A program made the translations under genes and the position numbers. A stretch of 53,557 nt of DNA from Coprobacillus sp. GTDB taxonomy: Bacteria > Bacillota_I > Bacilli_A > RFN20 > CAG-826. Position 1 is the first letter of the stretch. Each line of letters begins with the position of its first letter. Positions 5,334 through 53,284 of the stretch are shown here, piece by piece. The stretch is taken from NCBI GenBank assembly GCA_021203905.1, contig JAJQAG010000005.1, forward strand, positions 1-53,557, written 5' to 3'. The notes beneath the pieces are model-generated. The model saw only the letters and a list, made by a program, of their open reading frames with translations. It was not told where the DNA came from and did not search any database.

Positions 5334-8300
5334 ATGAAAAGAAAAGCATTCCTTCTTTGTGCAGGTTTAGTCCTTACTCTATCTCTCTCTTCTTGTAGTG
5401 AGTTTGGATCGTTGATGAGTAGTCTTGATTTTACGATGAACTTTAATCCTGGTAACGCCGAAGTTGTTCCTGATGACTCCTATGACGATGGGAGTGACCC
5501 TAGTGAAGAAGAAAGTGATGAAGTAGTAAAGAATACAGTGCACACTCATGTGTGGTCTAGTGAGTGGAACCAGAATAGTGAGACCCACTGGAAAGTGTGT
5601 ACTAGCTGTGGAAAGATTGACTATCAAAGTGGCCATGATTTAGTCTACACGATACTCGATGGGACCAAGCATGAAGAGAGATGTGAAATCTGTGGCTATG
5701 TCAGTGAAGTGGAACACACCATTGAATATGAAGTCTTAGAAACAAGTAATCAACACCAAGCCAAGTGTGATGTCTGTGGTTATAAGGCCACTCCTGAGAG
5801 TCACTTCCTTAATATGATTAATGAAGGGGAAGAGATGCACCACACCGAATGCAGCGTCTGTAGTTATGTCAGTGAAAGTGAGAGTCATAAATTAGTGTCT
5901 ATCTCCACAAACGAGGAGTATCACACAGTCTCATGTGAGGAGTGCTCCTATAGTGTGAATATTGTCCACACTCTCTCTTATGCTTCTGTTGGAGATTCTC
6001 TCCACGAGATCTCATGCACAGAGTGTAACTACGCTGTTTATGAAGATCATAGTATCGAATATTATGACGACGATGAAGACAGTGAAGATGGTTTATATCA
6101 CCACGCAGAATGTTTAATCTGCAATTATGTTGGTCCCCAAGAGGAGCATCACTATGGTTATCATAAGTATGATGTTTATTATCACAATATCATCTGTAAT
6201 GAATGTGCGAAGAGTAAGAGATCTCAAGGACATGACCTTGTCTACATCCCTGTGGATAGTAGTTATCACCAAGTAAAATGCACTATCTGTGACTATATAG
6301 AAGAGGAAGTCTCTCATAATCTCTTCTATACCACTGAAGGGAGTGAGACTCACCACACCTCTTGTTCCACTTGTGGATATAGCAGCGGGAGTGTCCCCCA
6401 TGAATTTAACTACACAAACCTTGGTGAAGTCTATCATAGTGCGGAGTGTCCGTGTGGAGAAGTTAAATCCGCAGAAGGACACACTCTAGTATATACTGAT
6501 ACAGGAGATGATACCTGTCATGAGGTTAGTTGTACCTATTGTAATTATCAAGTAGAAATAGCGCACGATTATACTTATACCATGCTCTCTATAGGTAGTA
6601 GTGGTTATCATGAAGCGGCCTGCTCTATCTGTGGTCACCACATCGAAGAAAAACACACAATTGGATATGAAAGCGATGATGATACTTACCACCACGAAGT
6701 ATGTACACTATGTAGTTATGCTAGCACTGACCAACTGACCCACGAGTATGACTTTGTCTCCGCGAGTAGTACTTCTCATATTGAAGTTTGTAAATATTGT
6801 GAGCATGAGACCGAACCAGTAGATCACATCTTGGGCTATACAGATAATAATAATGGCACTCACCACGAAGAGTGTGACATCTGTGGTTATAGTGCGGACA
6901 TCAATCACACACTTGAATATGAAGCCGTAGATGATGATGTTCACGCGGAGAAGTGTGTCTATTGTACTTATCAAGAAGACTCTGCGCCTCATGATAAATA
7001 TGTTTCCATTACCGATGAGAATAGTCATACGACTATGTGCTATGGATGTGACTATGAAAAAGTAGAAACCCACACAAACGCAGGGGATACTAATAGTAAC
7101 TGTGAGGTTTGTAAATTCTCTGCGGGATTAAGCTATTCTACTACTTCTCTCTCTGGTAAAGGAACCTATAGTGGCACAGTCCTAGGGATACCAAATAGCT
7201 ATAATAGTTATCAAATCACCACAGTTAATAGCAGTGCCTTTAGTGTTAGTGGTGGTAATGGCTATACCGAAATTATTATCCCCAAGAACATGACCACGAT
7301 TAATAGTAATGCCTTTAGATATTGTTATGATTTAACAACCCTCACATTTGAGCCGAATAGTAATTTAACGAAGATTAATAGTTACGCTTTCGAATATTGC
7401 TATGTTCTAGAAGAGTTAACTATCCCTTCAACGGTGACGACAATAGGTTCAAATGCCTTCCGCAATTGGGATACAGAAGAGCAGGAGGATGGAGAAGTTA
7501 TCGAATATGGAAGCAGTTTAAGAAGCATTACTTTTGAAGAGGGAAGTAAAATAACAACTTTAGATTTATCCGCTTTCTATGGTTGCAACCATCTCGAGTC
7601 TGTAAATATTGAAGCCTGCACAGAACTCACTACAATCGCTAACTACGTCTTCTATAGATGCTCTATTTTAGAAAACATCAATCTGGGTGCATGTAGCAAA
7701 CTATCATCCATTGGTGATTATGCTTTCTATAATTGCTATGCTTTGAGCGTGGATCTAAATCTTGAAGACTGCACAAACCTCACATCCATTGGACAAAGTT
7801 CCTTCTATCAGTGCTATGCACTGAAATCCATTCATCTCCCCTCATGTCTAACAACAATGGGTAAATACTGCTTCTATGGTTGTCATGCAGTGGAATCTAT
7901 TTCCTTTGGAGAGGATACTCAACTTCAATATATCTCATATTGTAACTTCTACGATTGTCAATCACTCACTTCCATAACTATCCCTAAGGGCATCTCTTAT
8001 ATTGATAACTGGGCATTTAGAGATGCCGAGGTCATGACCACTTTAACCTTTGAAACTGGATCTATTTGTGAATCAATTGGTGATTATTCATTCTATCTTG
8101 GTTACGCATTGAAATCACTAATAATACCCGCGACAGTGAAGAGTATTGGTATTTATGCCTTCTGCAACTGTACAAGTCTTGAAACCTTGTCTTTTGAGCC
8201 AGGAAGTCAACTTGAAAGTATTGAGTCTCGCGCCTTCTATGGTTGTTCATCATTAACATCTATTATTATTCCTGCCTCTGTGAGTTATATCGCTGGAGGC

Positions 8301-9515
8301 GATACTGATGATAGTGGAAGCACTAAGGTTGGAGCCTTTGCCTATTGTACATCTCTTGGATCAGTGGTCTTTGAAGATAATAGCCAATTTAATGATTGGT
8401 CACGACTAGAGAGTATCTTTAATAAAGACACTATTGACCTCGATTTAAGAAACACTGGAATTACTGAAATTGAAAGTGGAATGTTTGAAAATAGCTCAAT
8501 TAGGTCTATCAGACTACCCGCGACAGTAACCTCTATAGGAGCGAATGCTTTTAGTGGCGCTTCGAATCTTGAGAATGTGGTCTTTGCTAGTGGGAGTCAA
8601 TTGACCTCTATAGGAGCGAATGCCTTCTCTAACACTCCATCACTCACCACCTTTGAGGTTCCCGCTTCTGTCACAAGTATTGGAAAACAAGCTTTCTGCT
8701 ACTCCCACTCTTCTAGTTATAACTGCTACCTTGAATCATTGACCTTCGAAGAAGGAAGTCAACTAACATCTATTGGAGATGATGCCTTCCGCGGGGCCAC
8801 AGACCTTGCCACTATGAACCTTGAAGATTGTACTTCTCTTACCTCTATTGGTTCTTACTCCTTTGCAGATGCTCATCTCTTAGATCACATTACGATTCCC
8901 GCAAGTCTTACTTCCTTTGGTAATCGTGCCTTTACCTATTGCTATGGAGCGAAGACCATTACCTTTGAAGAAGGTAGCCCCTTAACATCTATTTCTGATT
9001 ATGCCTTCCGTGATTGTAACTCTGTGACTGATATTACTCTTCCTAGTGGTGTAAAGACTATTGGAAGTTATTCATTCTCAGATTGCTATGATCTTGTCAA
9101 TATTAACTTTGATGAGTGTGCGAACCTCTCTGAGTTTGATAGTTATGCTTTTTATAAATGTAACTCTCTTGAAGAGATAAGATTTGTGAGTCCAATTAGC
9201 ACAGTGGATAACTATTCTTTTGCCAACGCGACAAGTCTTCGATATCTCTTCTTTACCAATAATGGATCTACGCAGTGTACTCTTAAAGCCAATTGTTTTA
9301 ATGGTTGTTCGGCCTTAGAGGCTCTTGTACTTCCATCATCTATAAGTTGGCCACTTTTTAGTTCTAGTCAGTTCAATAACTGTCCCAGCACCTGCATTGT
9401 CTACTTAAATGGTAATAGCACAATCACTTCAAGTTCTTATGGACTTAAAAACTGTACTCAATATAAGTCTGGTGCTTGGGCTTGGGGTGATGATGGTTAC
9501 CCCTATGTCCTATAA
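5334..9515 (+). CDS. Giant surface lipoprotein: about 19 His/Cys modules plus long BspA-type LRR domain
   Basis: 1393 residues. The signal peptide MKRKAFLLCAGLVLTLSLSSC ends at lipidated Cys21. An acidic linker runs to about residue 68. Residues 70-590 hold about 18 modules of 27-32 residues, each with His-x(2-3)-CxxC and a His at the boundary (CTSC, CEIC, CDVC, CSVC ... CEVC), plus one variant with CPC. Residues 600-1390 are about 30 LRR_5/BspA repeats ending in a WAWGDDGYPYVL tail. No catalytic motif was seen; a surface adhesin or metal-binding role is inference. There is no clear Shine-Dalgarno sequence before the ATG. It is a close paralogue of the next gene, with near-identical DNA over the signal peptide and over the first LRRs. 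Confidence 0.9.
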   Translation: MKRKAFLLCAGLVLTLSLSSCSEFGSLMSSLDFTMNFNPGNAEVVPDDSYDDGSDPSEEESDEVVKNTVHTHVWSSEWNQNSETHWKVCTSCGKIDYQSGHDLVYTILDGTKHEERCEICGYVSEVEHTIEYEVLETSNQHQAKCDVCGYKATPESHFLNMINEGEEMHHTECSVCSYVSESESHKLVSISTNEEYHTVSCEECSYSVNIVHTLSYASVGDSLHEISCTECNYAVYEDHSIEYYDDDEDSEDGLYHHAECLICNYVGPQEEHHYGYHKYDVYYHNIICNECAKSKRSQGHDLVYIPVDSSYHQVKCTICDYIEEEVSHNLFYTTEGSETHHTSCSTCGYSSGSVPHEFNYTNLGEVYHSAECPCGEVKSAEGHTLVYTDTGDDTCHEVSCTYCNYQVEIAHDYTYTMLSIGSSGYHEAACSICGHHIEEKHTIGYESDDDTYHHEVCTLCSYASTDQLTHEYDFVSASSTSHIEVCKYCEHETEPVDHILGYTDNNNGTHHEECDICGYSADINHTLEYEAVDDDVHAEKCVYCTYQEDSAPHDKYVSITDENSHTTMCYGCDYEKVETHTNAGDTNSNCEVCKFSAGLSYSTTSLSGKGTYSGTVLGIPNSYNSYQITTVNSSAFSVSGGNGYTEIIIPKNMTTINSNAFRYCYDLTTLTFEPNSNLTKINSYAFEYCYVLEELTIPSTVTTIGSNAFRNWDTEEQEDGEVIEYGSSLRSITFEEGSKITTLDLSAFYGCNHLESVNIEACTELTTIANYVFYRCSILENINLGACSKLSSIGDYAFYNCYALSVDLNLEDCTNLTSIGQSSFYQCYALKSIHLPSCLTTMGKYCFYGCHAVESISFGEDTQLQYISYCNFYDCQSLTSITIPKGISYIDNWAFRDAEVMTTLTFETGSICESIGDYSFYLGYALKSLIIPATVKSIGIYAFCNCTSLETLSFEPGSQLESIESRAFYGCSSLTSIIIPASVSYIAGGDTDDSGSTKVGAFAYCTSLGSVVFEDNSQFNDWSRLESIFNKDTIDLDLRNTGITEIESGMFENSSIRSIRLPATVTSIGANAFSGASNLENVVFASGSQLTSIGANAFSNTPSLTTFEVPASVTSIGKQAFCYSHSSSYNCYLESLTFEEGSQLTSIGDDAFRGATDLATMNLEDCTSLTSIGSYSFADAHLLDHITIPASLTSFGNRAFTYCYGAKTITFEEGSPLTSISDYAFRDCNSVTDITLPSGVKTIGSYSFSDCYDLVNINFDECANLSEFDSYAFYKCNSLEEIRFVSPISTVDNYSFANATSLRYLFFTNNGSTQCTLKANCFNGCSALEALVLPSSISWPLFSSSQFNNCPSTCIVYLNGNSTITSSSYGLKNCTQYKSGAWAWGDDGYPYVL

Positions 9516-9730: not shown

Positions 9731-12700
9731 ATGAAAAAGAAAGCTTTACTTATTTGTGCGGGTTTAGTCCTTACTCTATCTCTCTCTTCTTGTAGTGAGT
9801 TTGGATCGTTGATGAGTAGTCTTGATTTTACGATGAACCTTAATCCCGGTAACGCCGAAGTTGTCCCTGATGAAGATACTAGCGCTATGGCGGATGACGA
9901 AGAGGAAGAAGAAGTTGTTAATAAAGCCCATGTCCATAGTTGGGAAGAGGGGTGGAGCAATAATAGTGAGAGTCACTGGAAGGTCTGTTCCACCTGTGGA
10001 AAGATTGACTATCAAAGTGGTCATGAACTTGTCTTTAATGCCCTAGATAGCACCCACCACGAAGAAAGTTGTGAAACCTGTGGTTATGTCGCTGAAGTGG
10101 AGCACACCCTGACTTATGATATTTTAGAGACCACCAACCAACATCAAGCGGTCTGTACAATTTGTGAATATAAGGCCACTCCTGAGAGTCACTTCTTAAA
10201 GATGGTCAATGAAGGTAGTGATATGCATCACACCGAGTGCAGTGTGTGTGAATACATCAGTGAGAGTGAATATCATAAACTAGCCGCGGTTTCTATTAAT
10301 GACCAGTATCACACACTCTCATGTGAGGAGTGTTCCTATAGTGTGGATATTGTCCACACTATCTCTTATGATTCTTGTAGTGACACCGAACACAAGATCT
10401 CTTGCACAGAGTGTGACTATGCTGTTTATGAAGATCACACCATCGAATATTACGATGATGATGAAGATAATACTGATGGAGCATACCACCACAGCGAATG
10501 CTTAGTCTGTAATTATAGGACTGAGCCAGAAGAACACGATTATGGATACAATACAAGTGATAAGTATTATCACTATATTCAATGTAAACAATGTGCAAAG
10601 AGAAAAGGGAGCGCGGGTCACACTTTTATCTATCAAGCATGCGATGTCGAGCAACATGCGATTACTTGCCAAGATTGTGATTATGAAGAGTTAGTGGATC
10701 ACAATGCTGTTTATACAGATCTAGGGGATGAAGGTCATTTCTTTTACTGCCGAACTTGTGAATATCAAAGTGAAGTACTCCCCCATGAGTTTAACTATGC
10801 CTCTCTCGGATCGGTTTATCATAGTGCGGTGTGCTTATTCTGTAATGAGATAATCTCTAGTGAAGGGCACGATCTTATTATGGAAAGTGCGGATGATGAA
10901 TATCACACTGTCCGCTGCAGCGCCTGTAGCTACGAAGAAAAGATTAAACATAATTATGAATACACTATTGTGAGCTATGGGGCTAGTGGTCTCCATAAAG
11001 GTGTGTGTACAGATTGTGGACACACTATCGAAGAAGAACATGTCGTGGAGTTTGCTCCAAGTAGTGATGGGAGCAGCCACCACGAGGCTTGCACTTTATG
11101 TGCGTGGGCAAGTGAAGAAGAACTCAACCACGAGTTTGAATATAACTCCACAGGTTCCACAACGCACTCTGTGATCTGCTCATATTGCCACTATGAGGAT
11201 ACCCCTCAAGATCACACTCTTGAATACACCGATAATAATGATGGCACTCACCATGCCTATTGTGATGTCTGTAAGTATAGTGCGGATCTTAATCACACTC
11301 TTGAATATGAAGCCGTAGATGATGAGACTCACGCGGAAGCGTGTCTCTACTGCACTTATCAAGAAAATGCCGCCCCTCACGATAAATACTATTCCATAAC
11401 TGATGAGAATTGTCATACGACAATGTGTCGTGGATGTGACTATGCATCTAGTCCTGAAAGTCACAATATTAGCGATGGAAACTGCGAAGTTTGTAAGTTT
11501 GCCTCAGGCTTAAACTACTCAGGTAGTTCCGTTACGGGTAAAGGAAGTTATAGTGGCACAGTCCTAGGGATACCAAATAGCTATAATAGTAATCAAATCA
11601 CCACAGTTAATGGCAGTGCCTTTAGTGTTAGTGGTGGTAATGGCTATACCGAAATTATCATCCCCAAGAACATGACCACGATTAATAGTTATGGTTTTAG
11701 ATACTGCTATGATTTAACAACCCTCACATTTGAGCCAAATAGTAATTTAACGACGATTAATAGTTACGCTTTCGGATATTGCTATGTTTTAGAGTCTTTA
11801 ACCATTCCCTCGAGTGTCCAAACCATTGCCGCGGAGGCCTTCTATTATCCTGAAGGATTAGAGACCCTAGAGTTTGAAGAAGATAGTCAACTGACGACGA
11901 TTGGTAACTATGCCTTTGCTTATGCCCTGACCTTAGAGACAATTACTATCCCTAAGAGTGTGACCTCTATTGGTAACTATGCCTTCCGTACCTATTACTC
12001 ATCCACCGTGGATGGAGAAACAGTCTACCACTACGCAAACTTAAAGTCAGTGGTCTTTGAGCAAGGGAGCCAGCTCACCTCTATTGGTCAAGATGCCTTC
12101 TATTACAACATTACTTGTGAGTCCATTAATCTTGAGGCTTGCAGTGAACTGACCTCTATTGGTACTTATGCTTTCGCTTATAATGAGGCTCTGACGTCCA
12201 TTACTATTCCCGCTTCACTCACAAGTATTCCAGATCAAGGCTTCCGTGAGTGCTATGCTTTAGAGTCTCTCACATTTGCTGAAGGAAGTCAGTTAGAAAG
12301 TATTGGTCAAAGCGCCTTCTATGACTGTTATGTCTTAAAATCGCTTGTTCTTCCAGAACACGTTAATTCCCTTAGTAAGTGGAGTTTTTATCATTGTTAT
12401 GCCCTTGAAGAATTAGTCTTCCCTAAAGACACTACTATAGAAACCATCCCATATTCTTGCTTTAACCATTGTGATGTTTTAAAAGAACTCACTATTCCTA
12501 GTAGTGTGAGAGAGATTGATGAATATGGTTTCTATGATTGTTATGCTCTTGAGACACTAACATGGGAGAGTCCCGCGCAAATTCAAATTATTTTGGATTA
12601 TGCCTTCTGGCATTGTGAATCCCTAGAAGAGCTCACTCTCCCTGCATCCTTAGTGACCACAGGATATGGTTGCTTTGCTTGTCCTTATTCTTTAAAGACC

Positions 12701-13960
12701 CTTACCATCGAAGCGGGTAATAATATTGAAATCCTGGCCCATGATATCTTTACTAGTTGTTACGCCCTAGAAACTGTGAACTTTGGTTATGGAGTTACTG
12801 ATACGATTCTAGATACCTCAGTCTTCTATAATTGTAATTCTTTAAAACAGATTGTCATTCCCGCGAATGTCACTGAGATTGCGGATTGGGTCTTCTATGG
12901 TTGCAATCAGATGACAAATGTCACCTTTGAAAGTGGCAGTCGCCTAACAAGCATTAGTTTTAATGCCTTCTATAATTGTAATTCTCTCGTCAGTATTAAC
13001 TTTGAGAATTGCCAAGACTTAACATTCATTGATTATAGTGCGTTCTATAAGTGCTCCTCTTTAACATCAGTAACCTTCCCCGCAAATCTCGAAGAGGTAG
13101 GAACAAATTGCTTCCAAGGTTGTACCTCTCTTGAGACGGTTGACTTCGAGTATGGAAGTAAGATCGAGAGTCTTACCAACTTCTGTCTCAGTGATAGCAG
13201 TGCTTTAAGAGAAGTGGTTTTTGAAGGTAATAGTCAATTAGCGAGTATCGGCTCCGCTGAATTCCAGGATGTGACCACTCTCGAAGTCTTTGACTTTGGA
13301 GAGAACAGCAGTGTCTCCTCGATTGGTAAGAATGCTTTTAATAACACGAGAGTGAGTGATGTCTTTATCCCTGCAAATGTGACATCGATTGGTGACTATG
13401 CCTTCTGCTACCACTACACAAGTGGATTACTTGGCACGACAGACCACTACGATGGTTGTTGGGTGGAACATCTGACCTTTGAGGAAGGAAGTAAACTTAC
13501 TGAGATTGGGCAACATGCCTTCCATGGATGTACAGATCTAGAGACTCCTAACTTTGAAGCCTGTACAGCACTTACGACGATCAGTACCTATGCCTTCTAT
13601 GAATGCAGTCTCTTCAAAGAGATTAGACTTACTGGTGCAATAACCGAACTTACACAATATGTTTTCTATGGATGTACAAGTCTTGAATATCTCTTATTTA
13701 CAAATTCTTCAAAGGTTACTCTTAGACAATACTGCTGTTATAACTGTACTTCGATGATTGCAATCGTCCTCCCCTCTTCTGTTACTTTTGCCTCTATGGG
13801 CTATTATCAATTCACAAATATTCCTAGTACTTGTGATATCTACTTAAATGGAACAAGTACCCTTTCTCCTAACTCGAAATGTGGTATTGGTAGTGTCACT
13901 CAACACAAGTCCGGTACATGGGCTTGGGATGAGAATGGTTATCCTTATGTCATCTCATAA
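9731..13960 (+). CDS. Giant surface lipoprotein, paralogue of the preceding gene
   Basis: 1409 residues with the same plan as its upstream neighbour: signal peptide MKKKALLICAGLVLTLSLSSC (Cys21), acidic linker, about 19 His/Cys modules (residues 66-590; CSTC, CETC, CTIC ... CEVC), then LRR_5/BspA repeats to the end with the tail WAWDENGYPYVIS. The module array is collinear with that of the paralogue, but the LRR part has diverged in sequence and repeat order apart from its first 80 residues. A long signal-peptide segment and the LRR entry are almost identical at DNA level, which suggests gene conversion. It has its own poly-T promoter and its own terminator. Confidence 0.9.
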   Translation: MKKKALLICAGLVLTLSLSSCSEFGSLMSSLDFTMNLNPGNAEVVPDEDTSAMADDEEEEEVVNKAHVHSWEEGWSNNSESHWKVCSTCGKIDYQSGHELVFNALDSTHHEESCETCGYVAEVEHTLTYDILETTNQHQAVCTICEYKATPESHFLKMVNEGSDMHHTECSVCEYISESEYHKLAAVSINDQYHTLSCEECSYSVDIVHTISYDSCSDTEHKISCTECDYAVYEDHTIEYYDDDEDNTDGAYHHSECLVCNYRTEPEEHDYGYNTSDKYYHYIQCKQCAKRKGSAGHTFIYQACDVEQHAITCQDCDYEELVDHNAVYTDLGDEGHFFYCRTCEYQSEVLPHEFNYASLGSVYHSAVCLFCNEIISSEGHDLIMESADDEYHTVRCSACSYEEKIKHNYEYTIVSYGASGLHKGVCTDCGHTIEEEHVVEFAPSSDGSSHHEACTLCAWASEEELNHEFEYNSTGSTTHSVICSYCHYEDTPQDHTLEYTDNNDGTHHAYCDVCKYSADLNHTLEYEAVDDETHAEACLYCTYQENAAPHDKYYSITDENCHTTMCRGCDYASSPESHNISDGNCEVCKFASGLNYSGSSVTGKGSYSGTVLGIPNSYNSNQITTVNGSAFSVSGGNGYTEIIIPKNMTTINSYGFRYCYDLTTLTFEPNSNLTTINSYAFGYCYVLESLTIPSSVQTIAAEAFYYPEGLETLEFEEDSQLTTIGNYAFAYALTLETITIPKSVTSIGNYAFRTYYSSTVDGETVYHYANLKSVVFEQGSQLTSIGQDAFYYNITCESINLEACSELTSIGTYAFAYNEALTSITIPASLTSIPDQGFRECYALESLTFAEGSQLESIGQSAFYDCYVLKSLVLPEHVNSLSKWSFYHCYALEELVFPKDTTIETIPYSCFNHCDVLKELTIPSSVREIDEYGFYDCYALETLTWESPAQIQIILDYAFWHCESLEELTLPASLVTTGYGCFACPYSLKTLTIEAGNNIEILAHDIFTSCYALETVNFGYGVTDTILDTSVFYNCNSLKQIVIPANVTEIADWVFYGCNQMTNVTFESGSRLTSISFNAFYNCNSLVSINFENCQDLTFIDYSAFYKCSSLTSVTFPANLEEVGTNCFQGCTSLETVDFEYGSKIESLTNFCLSDSSALREVVFEGNSQLASIGSAEFQDVTTLEVFDFGENSSVSSIGKNAFNNTRVSDVFIPANVTSIGDYAFCYHYTSGLLGTTDHYDGCWVEHLTFEEGSKLTEIGQHAFHGCTDLETPNFEACTALTTISTYAFYECSLFKEIRLTGAITELTQYVFYGCTSLEYLLFTNSSKVTLRQYCCYNCTSMIAIVLPSSVTFASMGYYQFTNIPSTCDIYLNGTSTLSPNSKCGIGSVTQHKSGTWAWDENGYPYVIS

Positions 13961-49051: not shown

Positions 49052-51043
49052 TTAGCCTTCTTCTACTTCAAGTTCAGGTGGAACATAAGTCACGATTAAG
49101 TTTCTTCCACTCATCTGTTTTGTGGTGTCACTAGAGATATAACCAGTCTTATCAAGATCATAGTCCGCATAGTCATTAACGAAGGTTCCTTCATAGATGA
49201 ACTCACTAAGGTTTTCAGAGTAGATCATTCCGGTAAAGGTTCCTCCAGCAATGTTCACATGCACATAGTTAGGAATCACATTACAGGTGCATCCACACTC
49301 ACACTCAGTGGCGCACCCACAATCACAATCTTCCCCTTCACACTCACATTCGCATTCGTCTCCACAATCTTCGCATGTGCACCCTTCATCGCATTCGCAT
49401 TCGTCTCCACAATTATCGCAAGTGCAGTCATCCCCGCATTCGCCCTCGCACTCAGTGTCACATTCACAGTTACCTTCGCACTCGCACTCGCATTCGCAAT
49501 CTTCGTCGCAAGTACAACCACACTCGCAGTCAGGGACACATCCGCATTCGTCACATTCACATGTACATTTGCAAGTTTCACACTCACAAGGGGATACAAG
49601 GCTTACTTGATAGATAGCGTATGGACCTTCATGAATCTCTTCATTATCAAATCCACCCACAATGGTTCCGCTAGAGATGCTGACATTAATTCTATCTTCG
49701 CCAGTATAGATAATCGCAATACCCACTCCAGAAGTGGTATTGGTAGTATCATCGTAATTAAATGTTCCTTCAGCCTCGATATAGACATGTTCCTTACCTT
49801 CGGCAACATCTTCGATATTTAAGGTGCCACCTTTAATTTCAATTGCGGTGTCACCGCAGATATAACCACCAGTAATGTTACATGTTGTATGTTCAGCATT
49901 AAGACTAATCGCCGTGCTATTTTCGGAGACTATTTCTCCATCGCGGATATTAACCACTGAAGCATCAGTTTCATCTTCACTCATATTGACAATCTTATTA
50001 GTGATAATTGCGGGCCCGTCAACTGTCTCTATCTCACCACTATAGAAGTTAAAGGCAATGTGGTCATTTTGAGTGACAATCTCTTCTTCGTCCTCTTCTT
50101 GTTCACAACATTCACACTGACACTCCTCACCACACTCACCATTTTCACAATCTTCACAAGCACACTCTTCACATGTGCATGAATCACATCCACACTCACA
50201 AGCCTCGAGAGGTTGAACAAGATTTTCAGGTTCTATTTGTTCATTATTAATTGGTTCCGTGCCAATAATGACCACTCCATTGTTATCGGAAAGGATTGTG
50301 GCGCCGTAGACATTACAACTAGCGGTATCGTTTAGTTTAATTGCGGTGTCACTAGCGCTGATTTCTGCGCTTTCTTGTAGGCTGACACTACCTTCTCTAG
50401 TCGCGGCAATCGCCGTGCCCCCTTCGCTTTCATTATCAATGACACCATAGACGGAGAGAGTTCCTCCTTCTACAGAAACAAGTTCGTCCACCCCACTTGT
50501 GGCCACAAAGGAAACCCACTCACTGGTTTCTAGATAACCCGTATTACCAACGGTAATACCACTTCCAGAGAAGTGGACAGTTCCATCTCCCACAGGGATG
50601 GATTCATATTCTTCGTCTTCGTCTTCATAATCTTCATATTGAGAGCCTTCACTCACAATAGAGAGAGATCCTAAGACATTGAGACCATCATTCACATATA
50701 AGTCATAACCATTAAGGTCAAGAGTTACACTCGCACGACGAGAAACTGCTACAGTACTATTTAAAGTAATATTTTGCTGGAGCATTTGTGTTCCAGATTT
50801 GTTCATAGCATCTTCTAAAGCATCCTCACCATCAATGAGGAAGGTGCGGCCTTCAGTGTTACTGACAATATCTCCAATCGCGCCACAGGCAGTGCAGTAT
50901 TCATACCAGTCACCTTCAAAATAGGCAACAGTATCACCAGAGTCATAAGTATGAACATGAACTACTCGAAAGTAAAAAGTACAACCACTGAGGGTTAATG
51001 TCGAAAGAGCAATAACTGTAGCAAGAATAGGTGTTTTACGCAT
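49052..51043 (-). CDS. Lipoprotein with beta-helix-like body and two metallothionein-like Cys/acid-rich inserts
   Basis: 663 residues from the ATG at 51043; the reading frame is open upstream, but this start gives a direct lipoprotein signal MRKTPILATVIALSTLTLSGC (lipidated Cys21). Near residues 25-55 is one His/Cys module (HVHTYDSG ... YCTACG) as in the island proteins. The body (about 60-475) repeats short strands of the type VNIRDGEIVSENSTAISLN, ITGGYICGDTAIEIKGGTLNI, typical of parallel beta-helix polymers. Two inserts of CxC/CxxC runs interrupt it: residues about 280-312 (13 Cys in 32) and about 485-587 (38 Cys in 102), with Glu and Asp almost everywhere else and hardly any Lys. Metal sequestration at the surface is inference. 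Confidence 0.85.
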   Translation of the reverse strand: MRKTPILATVIALSTLTLSGCTFYFRVVHVHTYDSGDTVAYFEGDWYEYCTACGAIGDIVSNTEGRTFLIDGEDALEDAMNKSGTQMLQQNITLNSTVAVSRRASVTLDLNGYDLYVNDGLNVLGSLSIVSEGSQYEDYEDEDEEYESIPVGDGTVHFSGSGITVGNTGYLETSEWVSFVATSGVDELVSVEGGTLSVYGVIDNESEGGTAIAATREGSVSLQESAEISASDTAIKLNDTASCNVYGATILSDNNGVVIIGTEPINNEQIEPENLVQPLEACECGCDSCTCEECACEDCENGECGEECQCECCEQEEDEEEIVTQNDHIAFNFYSGEIETVDGPAIITNKIVNMSEDETDASVVNIRDGEIVSENSTAISLNAEHTTCNITGGYICGDTAIEIKGGTLNIEDVAEGKEHVYIEAEGTFNYDDTTNTTSGVGIAIIYTGEDRINVSISSGTIVGGFDNEEIHEGPYAIYQVSLVSPCECETCKCTCECDECGCVPDCECGCTCDEDCECECECEGNCECDTECEGECGDDCTCDNCGDECECDEGCTCEDCGDECECECEGEDCDCGCATECECGCTCNVIPNYVHVNIAGGTFTGMIYSENLSEFIYEGTFVNDYADYDLDKTGYISSDTTKQMSGRNLIVTYVPPELEVEEG

Positions 51044-51139
51044 ATCACATATAATAACCGATAAAAGGAAAAATATAAACAACCAAAATGAAATAATAAA
51101 TATTTACTATATTTAATCGAGAGAAAATTGTCCTTAATC

Positions 51140-51168
51140 TTTACAATACACATAAAAATGTACATAAT
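51140..51168 (+). promoter_or_regulatory. Promoter of nadE with a TGTACA palindrome
   Basis: TTTACA (51140-51145) and CATAAT (51163-51168), spacer 17. The palindrome ATGTACAT (51158-51165) sits at the end of the spacer and overlaps the -10. TGTACA is the core of the operator bound by E. coli YefM, and the downstream gene begins with a YefM-like domain. Expected start near 51175, ten bases before the ATG. Confidence 0.5.
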
Positions 51169-51184
51169 TATGTCAAGAGTTATT

Positions 51185-53284
51185 ATGGCTAAGATTATTC
51201 CAATTAAAGATTTGAGGGACACTAATAAAATTAGTGAGGAGTGTCATTCTAGTGATGAACCCTTGTTTGTCACAAAGAACGGATACGCTGATTTAGTGGT
51301 GCTTTCCAATAACTTATATGAAGAATTGCTTCATCAGAAGCCTTCTTCTAGAGAAGAATTACATTTTACGAACTCTAACCCCATTAACATGTCTTTAGAT
51401 CCAGAATTTATGGGCTTTGTGAAAGTGGGTGCAGCCTCTCTCAATGTTAAAGTAGGAGATGTTAATCATCACGTTGAAGAGATAAAAAAGTATGTGCGAA
51501 TAGCGGTGGAGCAAGGGGTAAAAGTCTTGGTCTTTCCTGAACTTTGTATTACTGGATATACATGTGGTGATCTCTTTTATAATGATGACCTATTAAAAGA
51601 AACGGAAGCCGCTCTTGTTAGTTTAAGAGAATTCTCTAAGGATTATGATGTTCTCTTTGTTGTTGGCGCTCCACTTCGATATAACGGCAAGATTTATAAC
51701 ACCGCTCCTATTATTTATCATGGAGAAATTCTTGCGGTTTATGCTAAGAGATATTTACCCCACCATAGGGAATATTACGAGAGCAGACAATTCAATGAAT
51801 ATCATGGTATTAACACAACTATTACTATAGGTGATAAACAGTGTCTATTTGGTAATCGCTTTATTCTTCAAAATACCCTCCATTATAAGATGTGTATCGG
51901 AGTGGAGATCTGTGAAGATATGTGGGCGGTTAATACTCCATCTAGCGAAGAAGCCCTTAATGGAGCGAACATCATCCTCAATCTCTCTGCTTCTAATGAA
52001 GTCATTGGAAAAGGTGAGTTTAGGGAACAACTTATAAGTGCAACCTCTGCGCGATTAATAAGTGGTTATATCTTCTCCTCTTGTGGAGCGAGTGAATCCA
52101 CAACAGATATTCTCTTCTCTGGTTATAAGGGCATTTATGAGAACGGAGACTTATTAGAGGAATCTCCTTATTTTGATGATGGACTTATTGTCTCGGATAT
52201 TGATATCGAGAGATTAGAGAATGAAAGAATGCACTCATCCTCTTTTGTTAATGAGTATGGTGTCAATGTGGATGTCATCCCCTTTAGGATGAAACTCAAT
52301 AATTCGACATTAAATCGAAAAATTTCGCAAAATCCATTTATTTTTGATGAAACTACATATGAAAAGGTCATCCACATGCAAGCGCTCGGACTTAAAAAGA
52401 GACTAGAAGCCACCAAGACAGAAAATGTTGTTGTGGGGCTCTCTGGAGGCTTAGATTCCGCTTTAGCACTCATTGTGTGTACTGAAACAATGAAATTAAT
52501 GAATCTTCCTCTCACTAACGTTCATGCCATTATTCTTCCAGCCTTTGGAACAAGTGATAGAACATTAAATAATGCCATAAATTTAGCAAAAGAGATAGAA
52601 GTCACCTATCAAATTGTCGATATTAAAAATAGTGTCACCTCACATTTAAAAGACATTGGTCATGATTTAACGACTCAGGATGTGACTTACGAAAACGCTC
52701 AAGCGAGAGAGAGAACCCAAGTGCTCTTTGATATGGCCAACAAAGTTCATGGTATTGTCGTGGGGACCGGAGACTTATCGGAACTATGTCTTGGCTGGAC
52801 CACCTTTAACGCGGATCATATGTCTAACTATTCTGTCAATATTTCTATACCTAAAACCCTTGTCAAAGAGTTAGTTAATTACTACGCAAAAAATCACCCT
52901 ACTTGTAGTGATACACTTAATGATATTTTACTCACTCCAATTTCTCCTGAACTCACAAAAGAAGGGGAGTCTATTGATCAGTTAACCGAAGATAAGATTG
53001 GACCTTATGAACTCAATGATTTCTTCATCTACTACTATTTGAGACACAACTATTCTTTGAAGAAAATTCTCTTTCTAGCAGTGGATGTTTTTGTGGATAA
53101 GTACACCCCTGAATTTATCAAGTCTTGTCTTGTTAATTTCATCAAGAGATTTCACTCTAATCAGTTTAAGAGAAGCACTCTTCCAGATGGTATTAAGATC
53201 AGTGAAGTCTCGGTTTCTCCCAGAGGAGATTTAAGACTCCCATCCGATATGAGTGTGGACACTCTTCTTAGTGAACTCGACTAG
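51185..53284 (+). CDS. nadE: Glutamine-dependent NAD+ synthetase with N-terminal Phd/YefM-like domain
   Basis: 699 residues from ATG 51185 (MAKIIPIKDLRDTNKISEEC). Residues 1-52 match the Phd/YefM antitoxin fold (PIKDLRDTNKI, PLFVTKNGYADLVVLSNNLYEELL). A short linker leads to the nitrilase-type glutaminase, where normal NadE proteins begin (MGFVKVGAAS, about residue 75): Glu in FPELCITGY, Lys in AKRYLPHHREY, Cys in GVEICEDMW. The C-terminal synthetase has the PP-loop SGGLDSALAL and GTGDLSELCLGW. It turns deamido-NAD, ATP and glutamine into NAD. An internal start at 51401 or 51408 would drop the extra domain, but has no ribosome binding site. No toxin gene is nearby. Confidence 0.93.
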   Translation: MAKIIPIKDLRDTNKISEECHSSDEPLFVTKNGYADLVVLSNNLYEELLHQKPSSREELHFTNSNPINMSLDPEFMGFVKVGAASLNVKVGDVNHHVEEIKKYVRIAVEQGVKVLVFPELCITGYTCGDLFYNDDLLKETEAALVSLREFSKDYDVLFVVGAPLRYNGKIYNTAPIIYHGEILAVYAKRYLPHHREYYESRQFNEYHGINTTITIGDKQCLFGNRFILQNTLHYKMCIGVEICEDMWAVNTPSSEEALNGANIILNLSASNEVIGKGEFREQLISATSARLISGYIFSSCGASESTTDILFSGYKGIYENGDLLEESPYFDDGLIVSDIDIERLENERMHSSSFVNEYGVNVDVIPFRMKLNNSTLNRKISQNPFIFDETTYEKVIHMQALGLKKRLEATKTENVVVGLSGGLDSALALIVCTETMKLMNLPLTNVHAIILPAFGTSDRTLNNAINLAKEIEVTYQIVDIKNSVTSHLKDIGHDLTTQDVTYENAQARERTQVLFDMANKVHGIVVGTGDLSELCLGWTTFNADHMSNYSVNISIPKTLVKELVNYYAKNHPTCSDTLNDILLTPISPELTKEGESIDQLTEDKIGPYELNDFFIYYYLRHNYSLKKILFLAVDVFVDKYTPEFIKSCLVNFIKRFHSNQFKRSTLPDGIKISEVSVSPRGDLRLPSDMSVDTLLSELD

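Follow-up and report, generated by a model that had tools for sequence, protein, structure and literature searches.

The nadE gene in the analysed window (the whole stretch of 53,557 nucleotides of Coprobacillus sp. DNA) encodes an NAD+ synthetase that carries a Phd/YefM-type antitoxin domain at its N terminus, and this NadE is very probably a repressor of its own gene, acting through the antitoxin-derived domain and a putative operator. A single open frame of 699 amino acids runs from the ATG at 51185 to the stop codon at 53284. On the forward strand it comprises a DNA-binding/dimerisation domain (residues 1–50; 51185–51334), a variable linker that is probably disordered, given its low identity and low pLDDT (residues 51–75; 51335–51409), and the amidohydrolase and synthetase domains of a glutamine-dependent NAD+ synthetase (51410–53281). 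The original prediction, which described this fusion, allowed that the protein might begin at an internal methionine at 51401 or 51408. The internal ATGs are located at 51389 and 51410, not exactly at those positions, and an internal start was ruled out because in dozens of species the N-domain is present in frame and has a start codon of its own, which also confirms the fusion itself. As predicted, no toxin gene adjoins nadE among the frames of the window.

The N-terminal region of the window protein alone matched the Pfam PhdYeFM_antitox profile (PF02604) at 20–21 bits (E 4.5e-4 and 2.1e-4), under the curated cutoff of 29.8, and all 30 of the aligned fused N-domains matched PF02604, with a best E of 6.9e-12. 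A phmmer search of PDB sequences with the N-domain alone returned no match and an N-domain profile returned weak matches only; therefore, structure comparison was needed. AlphaFold2 modelled residues 1–52 with a pLDDT of 91 and a predicted topology of strand, two helices, two strands and helix. The Foldseek PDB matches at probability 1.00 were mostly Phd/YefM/RelB-type antitoxins, operator-bound Phd among them, so profile and structure comparison agree with the initial assignment of residues 1–52 to a Phd/YefM-like fold. R11 is present in 30/30 fused homologues, and position 31 is lysine in 29 and arginine in the remaining one. By motif position, R11 and K/R31 are the predicted equivalents of the DNA-binding YefM residues R10 and R31 (LR...ITKNG versus AR...ITRQNG in E. 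coli YefM), position 11 being placed by the motif rather than computed residue by residue. R10 and R31 of YefM are essential for operator binding (PMC4803016, PMC3920265).

The remainder of the protein produced a full-length match to NF002730 (NAD(+) synthase) at 725 bits against a cutoff of 473. The glutaminase residues E119, K188 and C243 and the synthetase SGGLDS motif (S420-G421-D424) are present, which bears out the claim of a full-length glutamine-dependent NadE with all catalytic residues. Its closest PDB relative is M. tuberculosis NadE (3dla, E 4.9e-121), which belongs to octameric type 1 (PMC7196632). The window protein has the full amidohydrolase and synthetase domains and the catalytic residues in common with this type, but adds the predicted N-terminal DNA-binding domain and a putative operator of its own. 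In two other fused NadE proteins (L027 and L029, genus g19), the nucleophile cysteine column, window residue 243, reads G and S, which suggests that glutamine use may be lost there.

A survey for the same fusion, proposed with the original prediction, found it in about 67 of the 279 genomes of the host's order (small-genome Bacilli) among the matches listed; this count takes listed matches in frames of 627–752 aa, with NadE aligned full-length for 30 and the rest judged by frame length. N-domain homologues are fused likewise in the same genus, family and order. Most other N-domain matches in the order were short free-standing proteins; no fusion to another partner was found in this survey, as the long open frames were all about NadE-sized. 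In a draw of 395 genomes from the class, matches listed from beyond the order lay in short frames of at most 206 aa. Mean identity to the window protein is 54% in the N-domain, against 45% and 53% in the catalytic pair; conservation of the N-domain is on a par with that of the catalytic domains, and the linker is not conserved to this degree. A quick NadE tree placed all fused proteins in one clade (support 100) together with four non-fused NadE. One gain and two losses would explain this clade, although counting labels on the tree does not by itself distinguish a gain from a loss.

Upstream of the window nadE, two putative operator palindromes, ACATAAAAATGT (imperfect dyad; 51150–51161) and ACATAATTATGT (perfect dyad; 51162–51173; exact match once in the window), are spaced 12 bp apart. 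In the tandem ACATAAAAATGT-ACATAATTATGT at 51150–51173, a single helical turn separates the two, and the site overlies the predicted -10 box. The -10 hexamer of the predicted sigma-A promoter, TTTACA-N17-CATAAT (51140–51168, forward strand), lies inside the second palindrome; the consensus scan gave 10/12 matches, which is weak alone, as shuffled sequence yields 1.2 sites per region. In some enzymes, a DNA-binding domain has functions beyond repression, and the protein could bind this operator and activate transcription or tune it both ways, which we consider quite improbable. The palindromes cover the predicted -10 box, however, and this position is typical of repression and is used by YefM (PMC4803016), whose operator consists of two palindromes 12 bp apart, one of them over the -10 box (PMC4803016, PMC3920265). 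Because the strict tandem site occurs once in the genome of the host, binding is predicted at the nadE promoter only. Single CATAATTATG sites number just 4 in the 790 kb of this genome; the other sites, C4:10949 and C5:40216 (inside ORFs) and C2:88531 (at an ORF 5' end), were rejected as none is tandem.

The operator is tied to the fused domain across genomes. The core CATAATTATG was located upstream of fused nadE exactly in 15/32 cases and with one mismatch or fewer in 25/32 (shuffles, 0.04 and 1.0), whereas none of the 74 non-fused nadE of other taxa and none of the 18 from relatives within the order and class has the exact core. The tandem pattern, defined as CATAATTATG-N1/2-CATAATTATG with copies 11–12 bp apart and 4 or fewer of 20 mismatches, lies upstream of 25/34 fused nadE (0.16 expected in shuffles) and of none of the 18 non-fused nadE of relatives or the 74 other non-fused nadE. 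A weight matrix was trained on those 25 tandem sites, with a pass defined as a score above the 99% shuffle level. It passed 18/20 held-out fused nadE and 7/9 of those missing the simple pattern; in the non-fused sets, 1/18 and 1/73 passed. Across 95 whole genomes, the strict pattern occurred eight times; seven of these sites immediately precede fused nadE and are correctly oriented, and the reversed pattern, used as a control, did not occur. The tandem site is missing from non-fused nadE, also from the four that fall within the fused clade, and it is therefore a feature of the domain rather than of nadE or of a promoter alone.

The motif partly overlaps an extended -10 box, and its conservation could in part be that of the promoter. 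The non-fused controls, although imperfect as promoter controls because non-fused nadE is often inside an operon, and the whole-genome rarity of the site argue against this being the whole story. Four of the non-fused genes from the order and family (L131, L132, L134 and L136) directly abut the end of an upstream frame resembling the C terminus of NadD by eye (YVIDILKKEG). They are thus apparently part of nadD-nadE operons, whereas fused nadE genes have their own promoter. The eighth strict site (G097:C5:25119-25139; L204 1220-1240) is intergenic, in a genome without a detected fused NadE; the sequence retrieved beyond it contains no ORF that reaches 60 aa, and Rfam gave no hit. In genus g25, the fused nadE genes L020, L147, L228 and L233 are without the common operator and have another palindrome-like element, for example TGTCATTATAATGACA in L020. 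The related fused genes L020, G069, G264 and G249 gave no motif score, and another palindrome-like element was recognised by eye; a shift of specificity alongside a divergent N-domain is possible in this genus.

Phd/YefM domains dimerise, and it had also been suggested that the domain became an oligomerisation unit. If assembly were its only function, the operator would be a relic of a promoter that may have come along with the domain. We regard this as quite improbable: an unused operator would not be expected to be so conserved at the promoter position across dozens of species, the DNA-contact residues R11 and K/R31 are kept in all 30 homologues, and the strict site is missing from the nested non-fused genes. 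As a sole role, oligomerisation leaves the operator unexplained.

The operator of fused nadE is shared with free-standing antitoxins. Those nearest the fused domain have LRDT or LRNT at positions 10–13 and virtually the same operator, which is found at L114, L179, L245/L246 and L181; that of L179 is GGCATAATTATGCTATAATTTTGTC and that of L245, from outside the order, is GACATAATTATGCTATAATAATGAT. L114 matches PF02604 at 34.5 bits and adjoins a ParE toxin (37.3 bits), the ParE-like toxin adjoining L179 was recognised by eye, and a toxin-like frame follows L245/L246. More distant antitoxin groups (LKDT, LRNQY) have different palindromes in the same place. As the operator varies with the antitoxin group and is shared by the closest cousins, it appears that DNA specificity goes with the domain, and that the specificity of the toxin-antitoxin cousins has been kept in the fused protein. 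The N-terminal fold, R11/K31 and tandem palindromes 11–12 bp apart at the promoter are common to the fused NadE and to Phd/YefM antitoxins (YefM-YoeB, L114, L179 and L245), and the operator sequences of L114, L179 and L245 are nearly the same as the fused nadE site. Unlike these antitoxins, the fused NadE is without a toxin-binding tail or partner toxin and is joined to a metabolic enzyme. We hypothesize that an ancestral nadE acquired the promoter, the operator and roughly 50 initial codons from the Phd/YefM antitoxin gene of a ParE-type operon, and that the toxin-binding tail and the toxin were then lost. Use of the same operator by standalone antitoxins of the order would also fit a real operator to which some other protein, for instance a free-standing antitoxin, binds in trans. 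This is highly improbable, as the fused copy is the sole domain match in its own genome, where no second Phd/YefM protein was found, and in several other fused genomes (e.g., G021, G033 and G043).

The linker stands where the toxin-binding tail of an antitoxin would be, and this tail is gone. No C-terminal toxin-binding segment was found in the fused protein, in which the N-domain is followed by the non-conserved linker (mean identity to the window 11%, length 12–41 residues among homologues; pLDDT 40–45, with residues 52–66 of the full-length model below 50) and then NadE. These data bear on the earlier suggestion that the domain is still an antitoxin that neutralises an unlinked toxin, coupling NAD supply to growth control. 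The domain is homologous to antitoxins adjoining ParE toxins, and ParE-family toxins are present in the congeners G001 and G003. The genome of the host (97% complete), however, yielded no match to ParE or YoeB, and the only Fic match, at 14.5 bits, fell short of the cutoff of 24. With the toxin-binding tail replaced by the linker and no ParE or YoeB found, an antitoxin role is very unlikely.

Autorepression, which the original prediction had listed among its possible meanings, has strong support from sequence: the operator is conserved, accompanies the domain and agrees with that of the closest true antitoxin operons. NadE subunits would pair through their N-domains, and two N-domain dimers would occupy the two adjacent 12-bp palindromes. 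The occupied palindromes would cover the -10 box and exclude RNA polymerase, transcription would be blocked, and NadE would limit its own level. With eight N-domains, a type 1 NadE would have enough of them to bind cooperatively, and its oligomer or substrate state possibly tunes operator binding. More tentatively, NadE may be a one-protein NAD homeostat, in which its ligand or assembly state (NaAD, ATP, glutamine, NAD+) is coupled to operator binding, the enzyme would sense the demand for NAD, and the antitoxin-derived domain sets transcription of its own gene; this remains rather doubtful.

Enzymes with a DNA-binding domain that control their own pathway include PutA, BirA and NadR. The fused NadE resembles these in outline, in that the domain and a putative promoter site co-occur, but its DNA-binding fold is different and of toxin-antitoxin origin, the enzyme is NadE, and it has one clear target site in the genome; the likeness is predicted from sequence, and the ligand switch is hypothetical. 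NadR is likewise an enzyme with a DNA-binding domain that regulates its pathway (PMC7196632). In the open literature, with subscription journals mostly outside this search, no report was found of a NadE-antitoxin fusion, of an antitoxin-derived enzyme-repressor or of any enzyme-repressor based on NadE. If our model is true, a toxin-antitoxin module has been domesticated into metabolic control: promoter, operator and antitoxin head were attached as a single cassette to the gene of an essential enzyme and have been retained across the order, and the few enzymes known to control their own genes gain a new fold. On the same condition, the fused NadE would give these small-genome Bacilli a candidate regulator of NAD synthesis; in one of them, a NiaR-type 3H protein was looked for and not detected.

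The divergent neighbour of nadE (49052–51082, reverse strand) encodes a predicted lipoprotein-like protein, one stretch of which is extremely rich in Cys, Glu and Asp (CECDECGC...). Elsewhere in the window, 5334–9515 and 9731–13960 encode two very large repeat proteins that resemble each other and contain Cys-rich as well as BspA-like leucine-rich repeats; by eye, they are probably surface proteins.
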